Assembly (NCBI RefSeq): GCF_900119145.1
Contig: NZ_FPIY01000001.1
Span: forward strand, 1 to 64,000
Origin: Cellulophaga fucicola
Lineage (GTDB): Bacteria; Bacteroidota; Bacteroidia; Flavobacteriales; Flavobacteriaceae
Direction of reading: 5' to 3'
Length of the DNA: 64,000 bases
Below are positions 1 through 62,469 of the stretch, piece by piece. The translations under genes were made by a program, and so were the position numbers. Positions within the stretch are counted from its first letter, which is position 1; each line of letters opens with the position of its first letter. Below the pieces are notes generated by a model. The model had not been told where the DNA came from. It saw only the letters and a list, made by a program, of their open reading frames with translations, and made no database searches.

Positions 1-18
1 GCAATTAACAAACAATTT

Positions 19-125
19 AAGGTGGCCATGGCGATGAGGCTCACCCCTTTCCATTCCGAACAGGGAAGTTAAGCTCATCTGCGCCGATGGTACTGCCACT
101 AGGTGGGAGAGTAGGCCGTCGCCTT
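19..125 (+). rRNA. rrf: 5S ribosomal RNA
   Basis: The block carries the conserved 5S core (CCATTCCGAACAGGGAAGTT, then CTGCGCCGATGGTACTGC and GGTGGGAGAGTAGG). Bases 19-26 (AAGGTGGC) pair completely, allowing G-U, with 118-125 (GTCGCCTT) to form helix I, which sets the ends. Length of about 107 is normal for Bacteroidota. The 16S and 23S genes would lie just left of the window. A strong terminator follows at 131-163. Confidence 0.95.
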
Positions 126-130
126 TTTTC

Positions 131-538: not shown

Positions 539-2536
539 TTATTCTTCTTCACTACTATTTAATTCTTCTTCTTCCTCTTTATTTTTAGTATTCTCAAGTA
601 TGTTAAGCTTCTTTAATTTTGCTTTCCATGTATTTAAAGACTCTTTTTGATTGTTAATATTCTTTAAAACATTTTTAACTAAAGGATTGTCTTCAGAAGC
701 ATTTGAGAAAAACTGTAAATTGTTTTCTAACTGACGAATTTCGTTTTTAGATTCATCAATTTTTCTTCTAATAAATAACCTTTCTTTGTAGATTGCATTT
801 TCATTATCGCTAGATGATAACTTTTGAATCTTATCACCATATTTAAGCAACTCTGATTCTTGCTTGCTAATATCTAGTTTTCTAAATATGGCATCTAAAA
901 TAGTATTAAATTTATTATTTATATTTTTCTTTTTAAACGGTACGTGTCCGTAGCTTTTCCATTCGTTTATAAACTCCTTAATACTAGCTAAATCTTTAGA
1001 TCTATCGCCAGAAAGTTGAAACTCTTTTAACTTGTCTAAACAAGCTGTTTTATGTTCTAAATTTTCAAGTTCCTCTTTGCTAGATTGATTTTTTAAAGCG
1101 TGAAGTCTGTCAAAATAATGATTACAAGCAGCCTTGAACTCATTCCAAATTTTATCAGAATATTTTCTAGGAACGTGGCCAATTGTTTTCCACTCTCCTT
1201 GTACGCGTTTCATTTCTTTAGTTGCAACGTCCCAATCTTCGCTATCTTTTATTTGAATAGCGGTTTCTAATAAAGCTCTTTTTTTATCTAAATTTTCTTG
1301 TTGTTCCTTTTTTAAGTTTTTGTAAAAAGCATTTTTAGACTTGTTAAATGTTTTTACTGCTTCTTTAAAGGTTGCCCAAGTTTGTTCGTTAGATTTCTGA
1401 GGTACTTTGCCAGCGTTAAAGAATTCTTCTCTTAGAGCTTCTATTTCTTTAATTTGTTTTTGTAATTCTTTATGGTTGCTAGATGTGTTTTCTGATATGG
1501 CAATTATTTTTGCTATAATAGAGTTCTTTTTTTCTAAGTTAACCTCGTGAATTTTATCTAGGTCTTTATAATAATCTTGTCTCCTTTGGTGTAATACTTT
1601 TGTAGCATTGCTAAATTCTTCCCAGATTAACTCTCTGTGGTCTTTACCTACAGGGCCAATATCTTCTTTCCAGATTTTGTGTAATGTTTGTAATTCTCTA
1701 AAAGCTTTGCTAAGATCTGGCTCGTTAGTTAAGGCGTTAGCACGAACTATTAATTTAAGTTTTTCTTCTAAATTATGTTTAAAGTCTAAATCTCTTAATT
1801 CCCTGTTTAAATGAAGAAAGTCGTAAAAAATTTCTATATGGTGGTGGTATGTTTTCCAGACATTGTTATAATCTGTCCTAGGAATAGGTCCAGCATTTCT
1901 CCAGTTTTCTTGAAGGTCTTTAAAGTTCTTATACGTAGTATTTATATCTTCTTCTACGTTTACAAGACCTTTTAAATCTTCAATTATTTGAAGTCGTTTT
2001 TCTAAGTTTTTTTGAAGGTTTTGTTCTAGGTTTTTATAATATTCATCTCTTTTTTCTCTATAATCAGAAAATACTTCGTTAAATTGTCTTTTTGTTACAG
2101 AGTTGTATTTAAAGTCAATTTCATTGCCGCCATTAGCTATAAATTCTTCTTTTTTATGTTCAAGAAATTCTTGAAACTTTAAGTCGAATTCATATTTAAT
2201 ACCATCTATGTGTTTTTTAATGGCCTGTACTTTTTCATTCTTTACCAAGCGTTGTAGTTCGCCTACTAAATTTTCCATACTCATTGCATGGTAATCTAAT
2301 AATGGTATTTCATGCCTTTTTTGATTGTCTTGATCTTCTGCATCTTCTGCATTTGTTTCTTCAATCTCATCTATAATTTCTTTATCATCTTCAACTTCTT
2401 CGTTAGATGATGAGTTGTCAAGATCTTCATTTTTTATTTCAGTGGTTTTCTCTGATGTAGTAGTTGCATCAGTAGTTTCTGAATTTTCTTCACCCTCTAC
2501 ATTGTTTTGTAGTTCTTCTTTGCTGTCTTCCAACAT
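539..2536 (-). CDS. DUF349 repeat protein
   Basis: A 665-residue, highly charged helical protein. It contains several tandem DUF349 units, each with a W-x(6)-P motif such as ENWRNAGPIPRTDYNNVWKT, HKIWKEDIGPVGKD, GEWKTIGHVPRKYSDKIW and NEWKSYGHVPFKKKN. The N-terminal 80 residues are acidic and low-complexity (Glu/Asp/Thr/Ser), and the C-terminal tail is Glu-rich. The frame is open upstream to a TTG at 2596, but the ATG at 2536 (MLEDSKEEL) is the better start because the extra segment is hydrophobic and unlike the family. The molecular role of DUF349 proteins is not established. It follows thrB after about 125 bases on the same strand, a place where thrC is often found. Confidence 0.85.
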   Translation of the reverse strand: MLEDSKEELQNNVEGEENSETTDATTTSEKTTEIKNEDLDNSSSNEEVEDDKEIIDEIEETNAEDAEDQDNQKRHEIPLLDYHAMSMENLVGELQRLVKNEKVQAIKKHIDGIKYEFDLKFQEFLEHKKEEFIANGGNEIDFKYNSVTKRQFNEVFSDYREKRDEYYKNLEQNLQKNLEKRLQIIEDLKGLVNVEEDINTTYKNFKDLQENWRNAGPIPRTDYNNVWKTYHHHIEIFYDFLHLNRELRDLDFKHNLEEKLKLIVRANALTNEPDLSKAFRELQTLHKIWKEDIGPVGKDHRELIWEEFSNATKVLHQRRQDYYKDLDKIHEVNLEKKNSIIAKIIAISENTSSNHKELQKQIKEIEALREEFFNAGKVPQKSNEQTWATFKEAVKTFNKSKNAFYKNLKKEQQENLDKKRALLETAIQIKDSEDWDVATKEMKRVQGEWKTIGHVPRKYSDKIWNEFKAACNHYFDRLHALKNQSSKEELENLEHKTACLDKLKEFQLSGDRSKDLASIKEFINEWKSYGHVPFKKKNINNKFNTILDAIFRKLDISKQESELLKYGDKIQKLSSSDNENAIYKERLFIRRKIDESKNEIRQLENNLQFFSNASEDNPLVKNVLKNINNQKESLNTWKAKLKKLNILENTKNKEEEEELNSSEEE

Positions 2537-2661
2537 AATCTTTAGTATTTGGATTTCTATATAATGGTAATATACTAACAACCAAACAAACTTCAAAACT
2601 TAATATGTTTTTTAGCAGTCTTAAATTCTACATTTGGTAGTGGTATTTTTCTTATAATTTG

Positions 2662-3588
2662 TTATTTTATTACTTTAACTCCCTCTAAGTTTACTCTAGA
2701 AACGTGTATGTCATAAGGTATGCCTACTTTATTATAGATATCTTGCATTGCATTGGCTACTTTTTTAGCGTTTTCTTTTCCTTTGCTTAAGGCAAATATA
2801 GATGGGCCAGACCCTGAGATTCCACAACCCAACGCGCCAGCTTCTAAAGAAGCACTTTTTACATTGTCAAAAGCAGGTATAAGTATAGAGCGTATTGGTT
2901 CTATAATGTAATCTTGTAACGACCGGCCAATTAAATCATAATCTTCAGTATATAAACCAGCTATTAGTCCACCAACATTTCCCCATTGCTTAATACCGTC
3001 TGCTAAAGAAATTGTTGTTTTAAGTATTTTTCTAGAATCTGACGTTTTTATCTCTATTTGCGGATGTATAACCGTTGCGTAAAGTTCTTTAGGTGTATTT
3101 ATTTTTATTATATCCAAGGGATTATAGCTACGAACTAAAGTGAAACCTCCAAATATTGCAGGTGCTACATTATCTGCATGTTGTACACCACTTGCTAATT
3201 CTTCTCCTTTCATAGAAAATTGAACAAGTTCTAAATTAGAAAAAGGCTTGCCTAGTAATTGGTTCATTGCCCAAACAGCACCAGTAGAGCTGGCAGCGCT
3301 ACTTCCTATACCGCTACCAGCTTTAATATTCTTATATATTTCTATCTCAAAACCACCAGAGTAATCTGTTGCAGCTAACAAGGCCAAGCCCGCAACACCA
3401 GCAACGTTTTTATGGGTTTCTAATGGTAGGTCTTGACCTTCTAATTTTGTAATTGTTATGCCTTTCTTGGTAGTTTTTCTGATAACCATTTCGTCACCAA
3501 CACTGTCTAAAGCAACACCAAGAACATCAAAACCACAAGATACATTTGCTATAGTAGCAGGACAAAATACCCTAATTTCGTTTTTCAT
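2662..3588 (-). CDS. thrB: Homoserine kinase
   Basis: GHMP-family kinase of 308 residues that phosphorylates homoserine to O-phosphohomoserine in threonine synthesis. The N-terminus (VFCPATIANVSCGFDVLG), the ATP-binding glycine/serine loop (KAGSGIGSSAASSTGA, about residues 90-106) and the C-terminal GALGCGISGSGPSIFAL motif are all present. Start ATG at 3588 is 2 bases past the thrA stop, so the two genes are cotranscribed and probably translationally coupled. Cytoplasmic. Length is normal. Confidence 0.96.
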   Translation of the reverse strand: MKNEIRVFCPATIANVSCGFDVLGVALDSVGDEMVIRKTTKKGITITKLEGQDLPLETHKNVAGVAGLALLAATDYSGGFEIEIYKNIKAGSGIGSSAASSTGAVWAMNQLLGKPFSNLELVQFSMKGEELASGVQHADNVAPAIFGGFTLVRSYNPLDIIKINTPKELYATVIHPQIEIKTSDSRKILKTTISLADGIKQWGNVGGLIAGLYTEDYDLIGRSLQDYIIEPIRSILIPAFDNVKSASLEAGALGCGISGSGPSIFALSKGKENAKKVANAMQDIYNKVGIPYDIHVSRVNLEGVKVIK

Positions 3589-3590
3589 AA

Positions 3591-6035
3591 TTAAAAGTTT
3601 CCAATTCTTATTATATCAGCAAATATACCAGAAGCAGTAACATCTGCTCCTGCGCCAGCGCCTTTGATTATCATAGGTTGGTTAGGATATCTTTCAGTAA
3701 AAAATAAAACAATATTATCACTACCTTCTAGATTGTAAAAGTCGTGCCCTTTTGGTATGTGTTGTAAACCAACGCTTGCTTTTCCATTTTCAAACTGAGC
3801 GACATACTTAAGTTTGCAATCTTTTTTGTCTGATTCATTAAACATATCTTGGAAAGAATCTTCATTTTTAATAAGAGAGGCAAAGAAGTCTTCGTTATTT
3901 GTTGTAGCTAAGCTTTCTTTTGGTAAAAATGGTTTATTAGTTATTTCATCAATATCTAATTTATAACCACTTTCTCTTGCTAAAATTAAAATTTTACGGG
4001 CAACATCTATCCCGCTTAAATCTATTTTAGGGTCTGGCTCTGTGTAACCTTCTTCTTGAGCTTCTTTTACGATATCATGAAAAGTAGTAGAGCTACTAAA
4101 GTTATTAAAGACAAAGTTTAAACTACCAGATAGTACCGCTTGTATTTTTAATATTTTATCTCCAGATGCAATTAAATGTTTTAATGTATCTATAATTGGT
4201 AAACCTGCGCCTACATTAGTTTCAAACAAAAAGGGAGCATTATATTTTTGAGCTAAATATTTTAATTTACTATAGTTATCATATTCCGATGAGCATGCAA
4301 TTTTATTACAAGTAACAACAGAAATGCTATTGCGTAAATAATCTGCATAAGTCCTAGAGACTACATCACTAGCTGTGTTGTCTATAAAAATGCTATTTCT
4401 GTAGTTTAATTCATTTACTTTAGAAAAGAATTTTTCTTTATCAGCTTTATCTCCGCTAGCTAATTGTGTTTCCCAATTTTTTAAAGAGATTCCGTCTTCA
4501 TCAAAAAACATAGTTCTGGAGTTAGATATACCAACTACTCTAATGTTTAATTTTAAATTGTCTTTAAGGTATTTTTTTTGTTGTTTAATTTGATGTAATA
4601 ATTTAGAACCAACATTACCAACACCCATAATAAACAAGTTAAGTTGTTTTGTGTTTTCTTCAAAAAATTTCTCATGAAGAGCATTTAAAGCCTTTTTAAC
4701 ATCGCACTTATCTATAACGGCTGAGATATTACGTTCAGATGATCCTTGTGCTATAACTCTAATATTTACGTTATTTTTACCTAGTGTGCTAAACATTTTT
4801 CCGCTTAACCCTTGGTGGTTTTTCATATGGTCACCGACAAGAGCAATAATTGCAAGATCATTTTCAACCAAAACAGGTTTAATTTTTCGTAATGAAATTT
4901 CGTACTCAAATTCCGAATTAATTGCAGCTTCTGCAGTAGTTACATCATCAGCAGAAATACCAACACAAATTGAATGCTCTGAAGATGCTTGAGTTATAAG
5001 CACAATGCTAATTTGCGCTACCGAAAGTACTTCAAAAAAGCGTTTAGATATACCTGGTATGCCAACCATTCCGGAGCCTTCTAAAGATAATAGACTAATA
5101 TTTTCTATATGACTTATTCCGCGAACCGTTCTCCCGTTTTTATCTAAGTTTTTAGTTATAATTGTACCTTGAGACTCAGGATTAAACGTGTTTTTTATAG
5201 CAATTGATATGCCTTTTGCAAGTACCGGTTGTATTGTAGGTGGGTATAAAACTTTAGCCCCAAAATGAGAAAGTTCCATAGCTTCTTCATAAGATATATT
5301 AGCTATTGCTTTAGCTTGTTTAACTATTCTAGGATTTGCTGTAAACATACCGCTAACATCTGTCCAAATTTCTAAGTTTTCGGCATCAATGGCAGCAGCA
5401 ATAATAGATGCTGTATAATCAGATCCGCCACGGCCTAAAGTTGTAGAGTCTCCCTGAGTTGAAGAAGCAATAAAACCACCTAAAACAGTAATTTTGCTTT
5501 CTGTGCTATTAAAGAAATTTTTAATTAAGCTATTTGTTTCATTAAAGTTTTTAATTGCAGCTTTACCATAATTGGCATTAGTTTTTATAAGCTCTCTACT
5601 GTCTTTGTATGCAGTATTTAAACCTTGGGCTATAAAGTATTCACTAATAATGTAAGAAGATAATAGTTCTCCATAACTTACTATTTTGTCTGATAATTTA
5701 GGTGTTATTTCACCAATAAAGAATGCGCCCTCTAATAATGTTTCTAGTATGTTTAATTCGGTTTTTACTTTGCTTAAAACTTTACTTTGGTTGGTTACAG
5801 GAATTAGTTCTTTTATGGTGTTTATATGTCTTTCTTCAATCTTTAAAAAGACATCTTTGTAGCTTTTTTGGTGTATAGATGCTAATTGTGCAGCTTCTAA
5901 TAATAGATCTGTAACGCCACCAAAAGCAGAAACAACCACGGCTGTTTTAGATGTAGATTTTGAAACTATGTCTTTAACTAATTCTATATTTTTGGCATTG
6001 GCAACCGAAGTTCCGCCGAACTTTAATACTTTCAT
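3591..6035 (-). CDS. thrA: Bifunctional aspartokinase / homoserine dehydrogenase
   Basis: An 814-residue fusion that catalyses the first and third steps of the aspartate-to-threonine pathway. The aspartokinase half starts KFGGTSVANAKN and has GRGGSDYTA and EIWTDVSGM. Two ACT-type regulatory segments follow at about residues 310-460 (LSLEGSGMVGIPGISKRFF and LVGDHMKNHQGLSGKMF). Homoserine dehydrogenase starts near residue 465 (NLFIMGVGNVGSKLL) and contains ETNVGAGLPIIDTLKHL, SGSLNFVF and the catalytic region with DLSGIDVARKILILARE. ATG at 6035 is followed by thrB. Upstream lies a Thr/Ile-rich leader ORF (6099-6188) suggesting attenuation by charged tRNA-Thr/Ile. Confidence 0.97.
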   Translation of the reverse strand: MKVLKFGGTSVANAKNIELVKDIVSKSTSKTAVVVSAFGGVTDLLLEAAQLASIHQKSYKDVFLKIEERHINTIKELIPVTNQSKVLSKVKTELNILETLLEGAFFIGEITPKLSDKIVSYGELLSSYIISEYFIAQGLNTAYKDSRELIKTNANYGKAAIKNFNETNSLIKNFFNSTESKITVLGGFIASSTQGDSTTLGRGGSDYTASIIAAAIDAENLEIWTDVSGMFTANPRIVKQAKAIANISYEEAMELSHFGAKVLYPPTIQPVLAKGISIAIKNTFNPESQGTIITKNLDKNGRTVRGISHIENISLLSLEGSGMVGIPGISKRFFEVLSVAQISIVLITQASSEHSICVGISADDVTTAEAAINSEFEYEISLRKIKPVLVENDLAIIALVGDHMKNHQGLSGKMFSTLGKNNVNIRVIAQGSSERNISAVIDKCDVKKALNALHEKFFEENTKQLNLFIMGVGNVGSKLLHQIKQQKKYLKDNLKLNIRVVGISNSRTMFFDEDGISLKNWETQLASGDKADKEKFFSKVNELNYRNSIFIDNTASDVVSRTYADYLRNSISVVTCNKIACSSEYDNYSKLKYLAQKYNAPFLFETNVGAGLPIIDTLKHLIASGDKILKIQAVLSGSLNFVFNNFSSSTTFHDIVKEAQEEGYTEPDPKIDLSGIDVARKILILARESGYKLDIDEITNKPFLPKESLATTNNEDFFASLIKNEDSFQDMFNESDKKDCKLKYVAQFENGKASVGLQHIPKGHDFYNLEGSDNIVLFFTERYPNQPMIIKGAGAGADVTASGIFADIIRIGNF

Positions 6036-6098
6036 TGTAAGATAATTATAGATTTTTTATTTGTATTGAAAAAAATCAATACGTAAAATGGACGTGTA

Positions 6099-6188
6099 TT
6101 ATATAGCAAATAACCCCATAGGGGTAATTGTTGTGTTAGTAATAACACAAGTAAAAATGGTTGTAGAAAATGTAGTTACGTTGTCCAA
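6099..6188 (-). CDS. thrL: Putative thr operon leader peptide (attenuator)
   Basis: A 29-codon open frame 63 bases upstream of thrA. Nine of 29 residues are Thr and four are Ile, concentrated in the run VTTFSTTIFTCVITNTTITP. This is the composition expected of a leader that senses charged tRNA-Thr and tRNA-Ile. The start would be TTG at 6188; there is no ATG at the front of the frame, and the frame is closed by TAA upstream. A good promoter lies at 6221-6251. Two hairpins fall inside the ORF (6131-6150 and 6109-6129). I did not find a classical U-tract terminator after it. The symbol is by analogy to enterobacterial thrL; there is no homology claim. Confidence 0.6.
   Translation of the reverse strand: MDNVTTFSTTIFTCVITNTTITPMGLFAI
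6109..6150 (-). promoter_or_regulatory. Tandem hairpins within the thr leader
   Basis: Hairpin one (6131-6150) has perfect 8-base arms TTGTGTTA/TAACACAA around TTAC. Hairpin two (6109-6129) has 9-base arms AATTACCCC/GGGGTTATT with one T-T mismatch around TAT. They overlap the Thr/Ile codons of the leader ORF, so ribosome position would decide whether they form. A third weak stem, GTATTGA/TCAATAC, lies at 6063-6082 without a following T run. Confidence 0.5.
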
Positions 6189-6220
6189 AATGTTTATTTA
6201 AGCTTTGCTTATTAACGAAT

Positions 6221-6251
6221 CAAATGTAGTACTTTTGTCTTTTTAAACAAA
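6221..6251 (-). promoter_or_regulatory. thrA operon promoter
   Basis: On the minus strand: TTTG (6251-6248), 19-base spacer, TACATTTG (6228-6221). This matches the Bacteroidota consensus TTTG-N19/20-TAnnTTTG. Predicted transcription start is near 6215, about 27 bases before the leader ORF. Confidence 0.7.
6230..6237 (+). promoter_or_regulatory. nnr promoter -7 box
   Basis: TACTTTTG, one base away from the oppositely oriented TACATTTG of the thr promoter. A possible -33 TTTG is at 6204-6207, giving a longer than usual spacer of 22. Predicted start near 6243, about 60 bases before the nnr ATG. Confidence 0.5.
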
Positions 6252-62226: not shown

Positions 62227-62234
62227 TACTTTTG
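62227..62234 (+). promoter_or_regulatory. -7 box of riboswitch-TonB receptor transcript
   Basis: TACTTTTG, followed by CGCC. About 42 bases from the divergent -7 box of the ABC operon. Confidence 0.55.
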
Positions 62235-62244
62235 CGCCGAATTT

Positions 62245-62421
62245 TGGTTCTAACTACATAGTGTAGTAAGATTAAAAGGGAATTTGGTGCAAAACCAAAA
62301 CTGTTCCCGCAACTGTAAGCTTAGTTTACCTAGGGTAAATGCTTTTTGTAACTACAATCCACTGTCTAATTTATGGCGGGAAGGAAGGCAAAAAGACGCA
62401 AGTCAGGAGACCTGCCATATT
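62245..62421 (+). ncRNA. Cobalamin riboswitch
   Basis: Conserved elements in order: GGGAATTTGGTG with CAAAACCAAAAC and TGTTCCCGCAACTGTAAGC, a central stem, CCACTG, and the B12 box AGTCAGGAGACCTGCCAT (62401-62418). Just downstream is ATCCT/AGGAT (62441-62455) near the receptor ATG, a possible expression-platform stem. It should repress the downstream TonB receptor when cobalamin is bound. Confidence 0.95.
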
Positions 62422-62469
62422 ATATTAACAATTTAATAAAATCCTCGGGTAAAGGATATTTAAATAATT

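Follow-up and report, generated by a model that had tools for sequence, protein, structure and literature searches.

The window, a stretch of 64,000 nucleotides (nt) from Cellulophaga fucicola (contig NZ_FPIY01000001.1 of assembly GCF_900119145.1, positions 1 to 64,000), includes on its minus strand the gene thrA, which codes for a bifunctional aspartokinase-homoserine dehydrogenase and is preceded by the short leader studied here. The initial annotation described, between a promoter and thrA, a 29-codon frame with a TTG start, nine Thr codons and four Ile codons, which it proposed as a candidate attenuator, as well as two hairpins at the Thr codons. The frame is present as described and its translation is LDNVTTFSTTIFTCVITNTTITPMGLFAI followed by the stop codon; both hairpins, named P2 and P3 here, are predicted (Table 1). 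As judged from the sequences, the element is very probably a Thr/Ile-sensing leader peptide, a proposal that is well supported because the frame and its Thr codons are conserved in relatives.

Table 1. Features of the thrA leader, the neighboring genes and other elements of the window (ORF, open reading frame; aa, amino acids; rRNA, ribosomal RNA).
Feature	Coordinates	Strand	Description and basis
-33 promoter element TTTG	6248..6251	-	19 nt ahead of the -7 element; read from sequence
-7 promoter element TACATTTG	6221..6228	-	TAnnTTTG type; read from sequence
Leader ORF	6099..6188	-	29 codons, TTG start, 9 Thr and 4 Ile; ORF list, translation, relatives
P1 5′ strand UGGAC (tentative)	6183..6187	-	overlaps the leader start codon; fold prediction
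P2 hairpin TTGTGTTA-TTAC-TAACACAA	6131..6150	-	inside the Thr codons; fold prediction
P3 hairpin ACCCC-TAT-GGGGT	6113..6125	-	end of the Thr codons; fold prediction, relatives
TATAT element	6101..6105	-	8 nt past P3
P1 3′ strand GUCCA (tentative)	6089..6093	-	inside the conserved CGTCC segment
P4 hairpin GTATTGA-TTTTTT-TCAATAC	6063..6082	-	covarying arms
thrA	3591..6035	-	bifunctional aspartokinase-homoserine dehydrogenase, 814 aa; AA_kinase, ACT, NAD_binding_3 and Homoserine_dh domains
thrB-like gene	2662..3588	-	GHMP kinase, 308 aa; domain match
DUF349 protein gene	539..2596	-	next after the thrB-like gene
Cobalamin riboswitch	62228..62433	+	Rfam RF00174, 104.9 bits
5S rRNA gene	18..127	+	very start of the window

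The Thr content of the window ORF by itself is notable rather than overwhelming, as nine Thr codons were reached in some frame, open or not, in 47 of 5000 dinucleotide shuffles of the 90-nt ORF stretch, and it is the relatives that settle the case. The 186-nt stretch from 6215 to 6030 is predicted to fold with -29.1 kcal/mol (z -3.18), and 1 of 200 shuffles folded equally well. The comparison with related upstream regions that the initial annotation had suggested showed that the frame and its Thr codons are conserved throughout the genus, at the majority of family loci examined and at a minority of those more distant, so that the refuting condition named there, a lack of such conservation, did not apply. 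For a first sample, the region upstream of thrA was read in 18 genomes of the genus, including that of the window, and in 109 family genomes of the 160 matched. Of these 127 loci, 114 matched a CCC..GGG hairpin with an open frame, one match (L084) being clearly spurious, and inspection by eye identified variant hairpins in three of the 13 non-matching loci (L053, L071 and L134). A wider classification of 208 loci included the first sample, 20 more family loci and a sample of the phylum. A P3-like hairpin was found ahead of thrA in 132 of the 152 family loci and in 13 of the 56 loci outside the family, some of which bear the label of another class of the phylum. In 44 of 206 loci there was neither P3 nor a terminator, and every open window of 15 codons contained fewer than five Thr.

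The Thr codons were then counted after thinning the P3 loci to a set of 123, window included. Within the 57 nt ahead of P3, the best open frame has a mean of 5.85 Thr codons, compared with 2.11 in dinucleotide shuffles, and the largest of 100 shuffle means was 2.41. By the best-frame rule, only two of the 123 loci lacked an open frame before P3. The TTG start codon of the window clade is aligned with ATG in other members of the genus (TTGGAC versus ATGGAC). At two loci (L057 and L124) the leader and P3 lie about 190 and about 90 extra bases, respectively, from thrA compared with the usual distance. A conserved leader ORF with clustered codons for the regulatory amino acids, as in thrL-type attenuators, is therefore found upstream of thrA, with a mixed codon-position signature.

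The pairing support of the hairpins was assessed by a self-versus-cross test with 5000 permutations, and covariation was tested apart in group A, which is nearer in thrA and holds the window (28 loci), and group B (67 loci). P3 has the general form ACCCC-N3-GGGGT with an almost invariant core and covariation in the outer pairs (n = 112, z 3.4, 3 of 5000 permutations). The window has a single copy of the sequence ACCCCNNNGGGGT, which was absent from all of 100 shuffles. The pattern CCCCN3-4GGGG has three sites in the entire genome, and neither of the other two is a leader of the thrA type. At three loci of one other family, f8 (L176, L180 and L182), the stem is flipped to CGGGG..CCCG, in a form resembling ACGGGGTRA..CCCGT, and the leader stop codon lies inside the loop. 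The stop codon begins between 8 nt before and 4 nt after the end of P3 (-8 to +4) in 109 of 121 loci. Past P3, a YATAT element starts within 7 to 13 nt in 90 of 123 loci, while 500 shuffles gave a mean of 7.15 such loci and a maximum of 18; a second conserved copy, CATAT, in the 5′ part of the leader was merely sporadic. P4 is next, and its arms covary strongly in group B (z -9.2, 0 of 5000 permutations) and moderately in group A (z -2.4, 53 of 5000). In the window 27 nt separate the end of P4 from the thrA start, compared with mostly 38–40 nt in the Flavobacterium-like group. Within the Thr codons, the P2 arms change at the genus level from GTGTTA/TAACAC to GTGATA/TATCAC, as read from the alignment, and covariation supported this hairpin in group A (z -2.5) and left it unsupported in group B (z -0.3). 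When run on a group A alignment made with MAFFT, RNAalifold recovered P3 alone; P4 was misaligned in MAFFT alignment A1.

The initial annotation called the promoter ahead of the leader a consensus promoter. It stands as a promoter of the Bacteroidota type, TTTG-19 nt-TACATTTG, with the distance expected between -33 and -7 elements; a sigma-70 scan found promoter-like sites no more common than in shuffles (3 versus 4.1). At the other end of the leader, thrA shares 96% identity with its counterpart in Cellulophaga sp. 20_2_10 and 88% with that of C. omnivescoria, and the GHMP kinase encoded behind it is probably, from the position of its gene, the homoserine kinase ThrB. The thr genes are split because a thrC homologue is located elsewhere (G000:C8:1214230-1215228) and the gene behind the thrB-like gene codes for a DUF349 protein. 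Inspection of the 600 nt ahead of thrC by eye revealed no leader of the thrA type. The window also includes a cobalamin riboswitch and a 5S rRNA gene. The -7 element TAnnTTTG is that of the flavobacterial primary sigma factor (PMC9723704).

The annotation had further noted that a classical U-tract terminator was missing, and this held in a strict scan for intrinsic terminators. From P3 to 30 nt into thrA, one of 145 loci passed, the sole match being the P3 of that locus itself (L222), so that a U-tract terminator between leader and gene, as in thrL-type attenuators, is not part of this design by the strict scan. The same scan recognized three of three positive controls, the hisG, ilvD and pheA leaders of the same genome. 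The statement did not hold in a lax scan, in which P3 or P4 passed in 23 of 145 loci, including the P3 of the window with five T of seven; a simple terminator scan of the window likewise listed P3. Past P4, the frequency of T is at most 0.68 at any single position. The Thr region did not covary with the downstream region as expected for an antiterminator (z -0.5 and -0.2 in the two groups). In Flavobacterium-type leaders, a pairing between the ATTACAA Thr codons and the 5′ arm of P4 was visible by eye, but the self-versus-cross test did not support it. The thrA leader had no Rfam match at the gathering score, and searches at E up to 10 returned just five unrelated families, far under their thresholds. 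With good confidence, then, the output of the leader would be something other than an intrinsic terminator.

The three control leaders are like the thrA leader in that a peptide ORF is located upstream of the cognate biosynthetic gene, but they bear strong intrinsic terminators. Their peptides, identified by eye, and the folding energies of their terminators are MRNNNTHHHHFTPCYQAS and -15.7 kcal/mol for hisG (L172), MKTNNIIIIVLVIIISLWG and -23.3 kcal/mol for ilvD (L173), and MNTRYFWNGFYFYFFFKRGAGLL and -14.9 kcal/mol for pheA (L174). None of the three had an Rfam match at the gathering score. Terminators are also found at thrA itself. Under a rule of five Thr in 15 codons there were ten loci without P3, seven with a terminator and three without one, and another (L191), with four Thr, was added by eye. 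In the resulting eight (L181, L183, L186, L190, L191, L197, L227 and L233), a strong terminator separates the leader from the gene; two of them, L227 and L233, come from the family of the window. In L181 and L183 the Thr/Ile runs are almost identical and a very strong terminator is behind each. Since terminators occur in thrA leaders that lack P3, even within the family, the P3 design and the terminator design replace each other at this gene.

Two other ways in which a leader peptide could control its gene were considered. The initial annotation had suggested structure near the thrA start as an alternative mechanism, a suggestion that found no support in either analysis. Neither group A nor group B showed covariation of the thrA start region with any pairing partner, and the mean unpaired probability of the start was 0.545 in ribosome-free RNA and 0.538, 0.545 and 0.546 when a ribosome was placed at one of three positions (n = 117). 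In the window these values were 0.636 and 0.661–0.682, respectively. Sequestration of the thrA start, as in erm-type translational attenuation, was thus not supported by covariation or by folding. Arrest by the nascent peptide was rejected, as the peptide end shifts frame relative to P3 between groups: the C-terminus of the leader is TPLG in one group and TTLWGC in another while P3 persists, so that a conserved arrest peptide is not found.

We tentatively favor a mechanism, drawn from the sequences and from analogy, in which ribosome stalling on the Thr/Ile leader would control both thrA and the thrB-like gene, with no intrinsic terminator and most likely with Rho-dependent termination; Rho as the output, taken separately, is plausible but held more loosely. 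Rho-dependent termination is favored because no switch at the thrA start was found, the RNA after P3 contains more C than G, and Rho is encoded (Rho_RNA_bind match, E 5.7e-35). Between P3 and thrA, C exceeds G in 115 of 117 loci, with means of 0.176 for C and 0.075 for G, compared with 0.126 and 0.115 in the 90 nt upstream of 32 window genes. In the terminator-type leaders C exceeds G in just two of eight, as counted in a different stretch, the 60 nt before the terminator. By composition alone, the thrA leader thus has the tna-type combination of C-rich, G-poor RNA and no intrinsic terminator. The model for leader control of this kind, by departure or stalling of a ribosome, is the E. coli tna operon. 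When threonine is ample, the ribosome would reach the leader stop codon and depart. This would expose C-rich, G-poor RNA, a composition that the Thr codons (ACN) share. Rho could then load on the exposed RNA and end transcription upstream of thrA or soon after the polymerase has entered the gene, perhaps where P3-YATAT or P4 makes it pause. When Thr-transfer RNA (tRNA) or Ile-tRNA is scarce, the ribosome would stall on the leader just ahead of P3, covering the Rho loading site, and thrA and the gene behind it would be transcribed. Stalling at the codons of scarce tRNAs is proposed here in place of an arrest peptide.

Several observations weigh against this reading. P3 is missing from 43 of the 56 loci outside the family, and three loci (L105, L177 and L179) have a Thr-rich stretch and lack both P3 and a scanned terminator, with a weaker variant hairpin seen by eye in L179, a locus of family f8. 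The codon signature is mixed. Among the six sequences of the TTG clade, pairwise differences at codon positions 1, 2 and 3 number 15, 15 and 40, and 28 codon differences are synonymous and 30 non-synonymous. In the ATG clade the changes number 68, 28 and 55, with 38 synonymous and 87 non-synonymous. The coding signature is therefore visible mainly in the TTG clade. In the window, the leader stop lies 12 nt past P3, outside the usual range. The tentative P1, in which GGAC close to the start of the leader would pair over a long distance with GTCC past P3, gave a z of -3.1 in the pooled test and of about -1.5 per group, significant in neither. The excess of C over G is a weak sign of Rho loading. 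Finally, the near-fixed spacing of P3 and YATAT and the conserved P4 are not required by simple occlusion and would call for a further role.

The spacing of P3 and YATAT is the starting point of the main rival explanation, which we consider rather unlikely. P3 and YATAT would form a regulated polymerase signal, either a hairpin-stabilized pause or a non-canonical terminator without a U-tract, and Rho would not be needed; P3 would be opened or kept closed depending on the position of the leader ribosome. The position of YATAT is tied to P3 while the stop codon in most loci shifts between -8 and +4, and the flipped stem of the three f8 loci substitutes for P3. However, ordinary U-tract terminators serve the his, ilv and phe leaders of this genome, the known pause consensus was not evident by eye, and the bias of C over G is left unexplained. 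It seems unlikely that P3-YATAT-P4 represents a new attenuator output present in several Bacteroidota families, one in which the position of the leader ribosome directly steers polymerase pausing or processivity with no U-tract, and which is interchangeable in evolution with the terminator-type thrA leaders. Control of translation or RNA processing, in which the ribosome position alters the P3-P4 structure or its cleavage and hence thrA translation or mRNA stability, is quite unlikely. P4, strongly conserved in the Flavobacterium-like group at a mostly constant distance from thrA, is in its favor, and YATAT, AU-rich and unpaired with a hairpin on either side, would make a suitable endonuclease site; nonetheless, the thrA start region has no covarying partner in either group and its mean predicted accessibility is flat across ribosome positions.

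It is improbable that the element is a classic attenuator whose intrinsic terminator, being weak or degenerate, escaped the scan. The lax scan did pass P3 or P4 at some loci, that of the window among them, and genuine terminator-type thrA leaders occur in the phylum, but the strict scan accepted a single locus, T past P4 is limited at each position, and antiterminator covariation was not detected. Even less credit is given to P3 as a DNA operator palindrome bound by a repressor within the transcribed region, with incidental Thr codons. While ACCCCNNNGGGGT is a palindrome with few genomic occurrences, nearly every locus of the thinned set has an open Thr-rich frame ahead of P3 by the best-frame rule, the leader stop codon tracks P3, and family f8 flips the stem instead of keeping its sequence. 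Of the attenuator proposed initially, the Thr/Ile-sensing leader peptide is what the conservation supports well, whereas a thrL-like mechanism is not, given the outcome of the strict scan and of the search for alternative pairing.

Leader-peptide attenuation is an established kind of regulation, a textbook mechanism, and the literature searched contains little on its output in Bacteroidota. In a single genome, his, ilv and phe have ordinary terminator attenuators and thr has another design, which is conserved, and relatives bear either the terminator or the P3 design at thrA. The presence of both designs at the same gene makes possible a direct comparison of one codon sensor with two outputs in genetically tractable flavobacteria. 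The Bacteroid-trp motif RF01692 had no match to the window in Rfam; it is a leader of tryptophan genes, not of thrA. This motif was described as a candidate cis-regulatory RNA of Bacteroidetes (PMC2864571). In F. psychrophilum there are clues to leader-peptide attenuation upstream of amino-acid operons, and pheA and hisG are named among the structured 5′ elements conserved in the family (PMC9723704). The words thrA and threonine are absent from the main text of that article, and the passages covered do not describe a terminator-less design. No description of a terminator-less Thr leader was found in the openly readable main text of the literature searched.

The enterobacterial thr operon is controlled by the thrL attenuator (Rfam Thr_leader). 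The thrA leader shares with thrL a short Thr/Ile-rich ORF before the gene for a bifunctional aspartokinase-homoserine dehydrogenase, and differs from it in that it has no U-tract terminator in the strict scan, no antiterminator pairing that could be found and no Rfam match. In the E. coli tnaC-tna system attenuation is Rho-dependent and tryptophan is sensed through nascent-peptide arrest. The scheme proposed for thrA would share with it Rho termination governed by ribosome position, with a Thr/Ile codon run as the sensor in place of the arrest peptide. At toiL-topAI, the position of the leader ribosome decides Rho-dependent termination with no intrinsic terminator, and toiL senses antibiotics and occludes a ribosome-binding site (PMC12121999). 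Unlike toiL, the thrA leader would sense the supply of amino acids through its run of Thr and Ile codons, with an output that may likewise depend on Rho.
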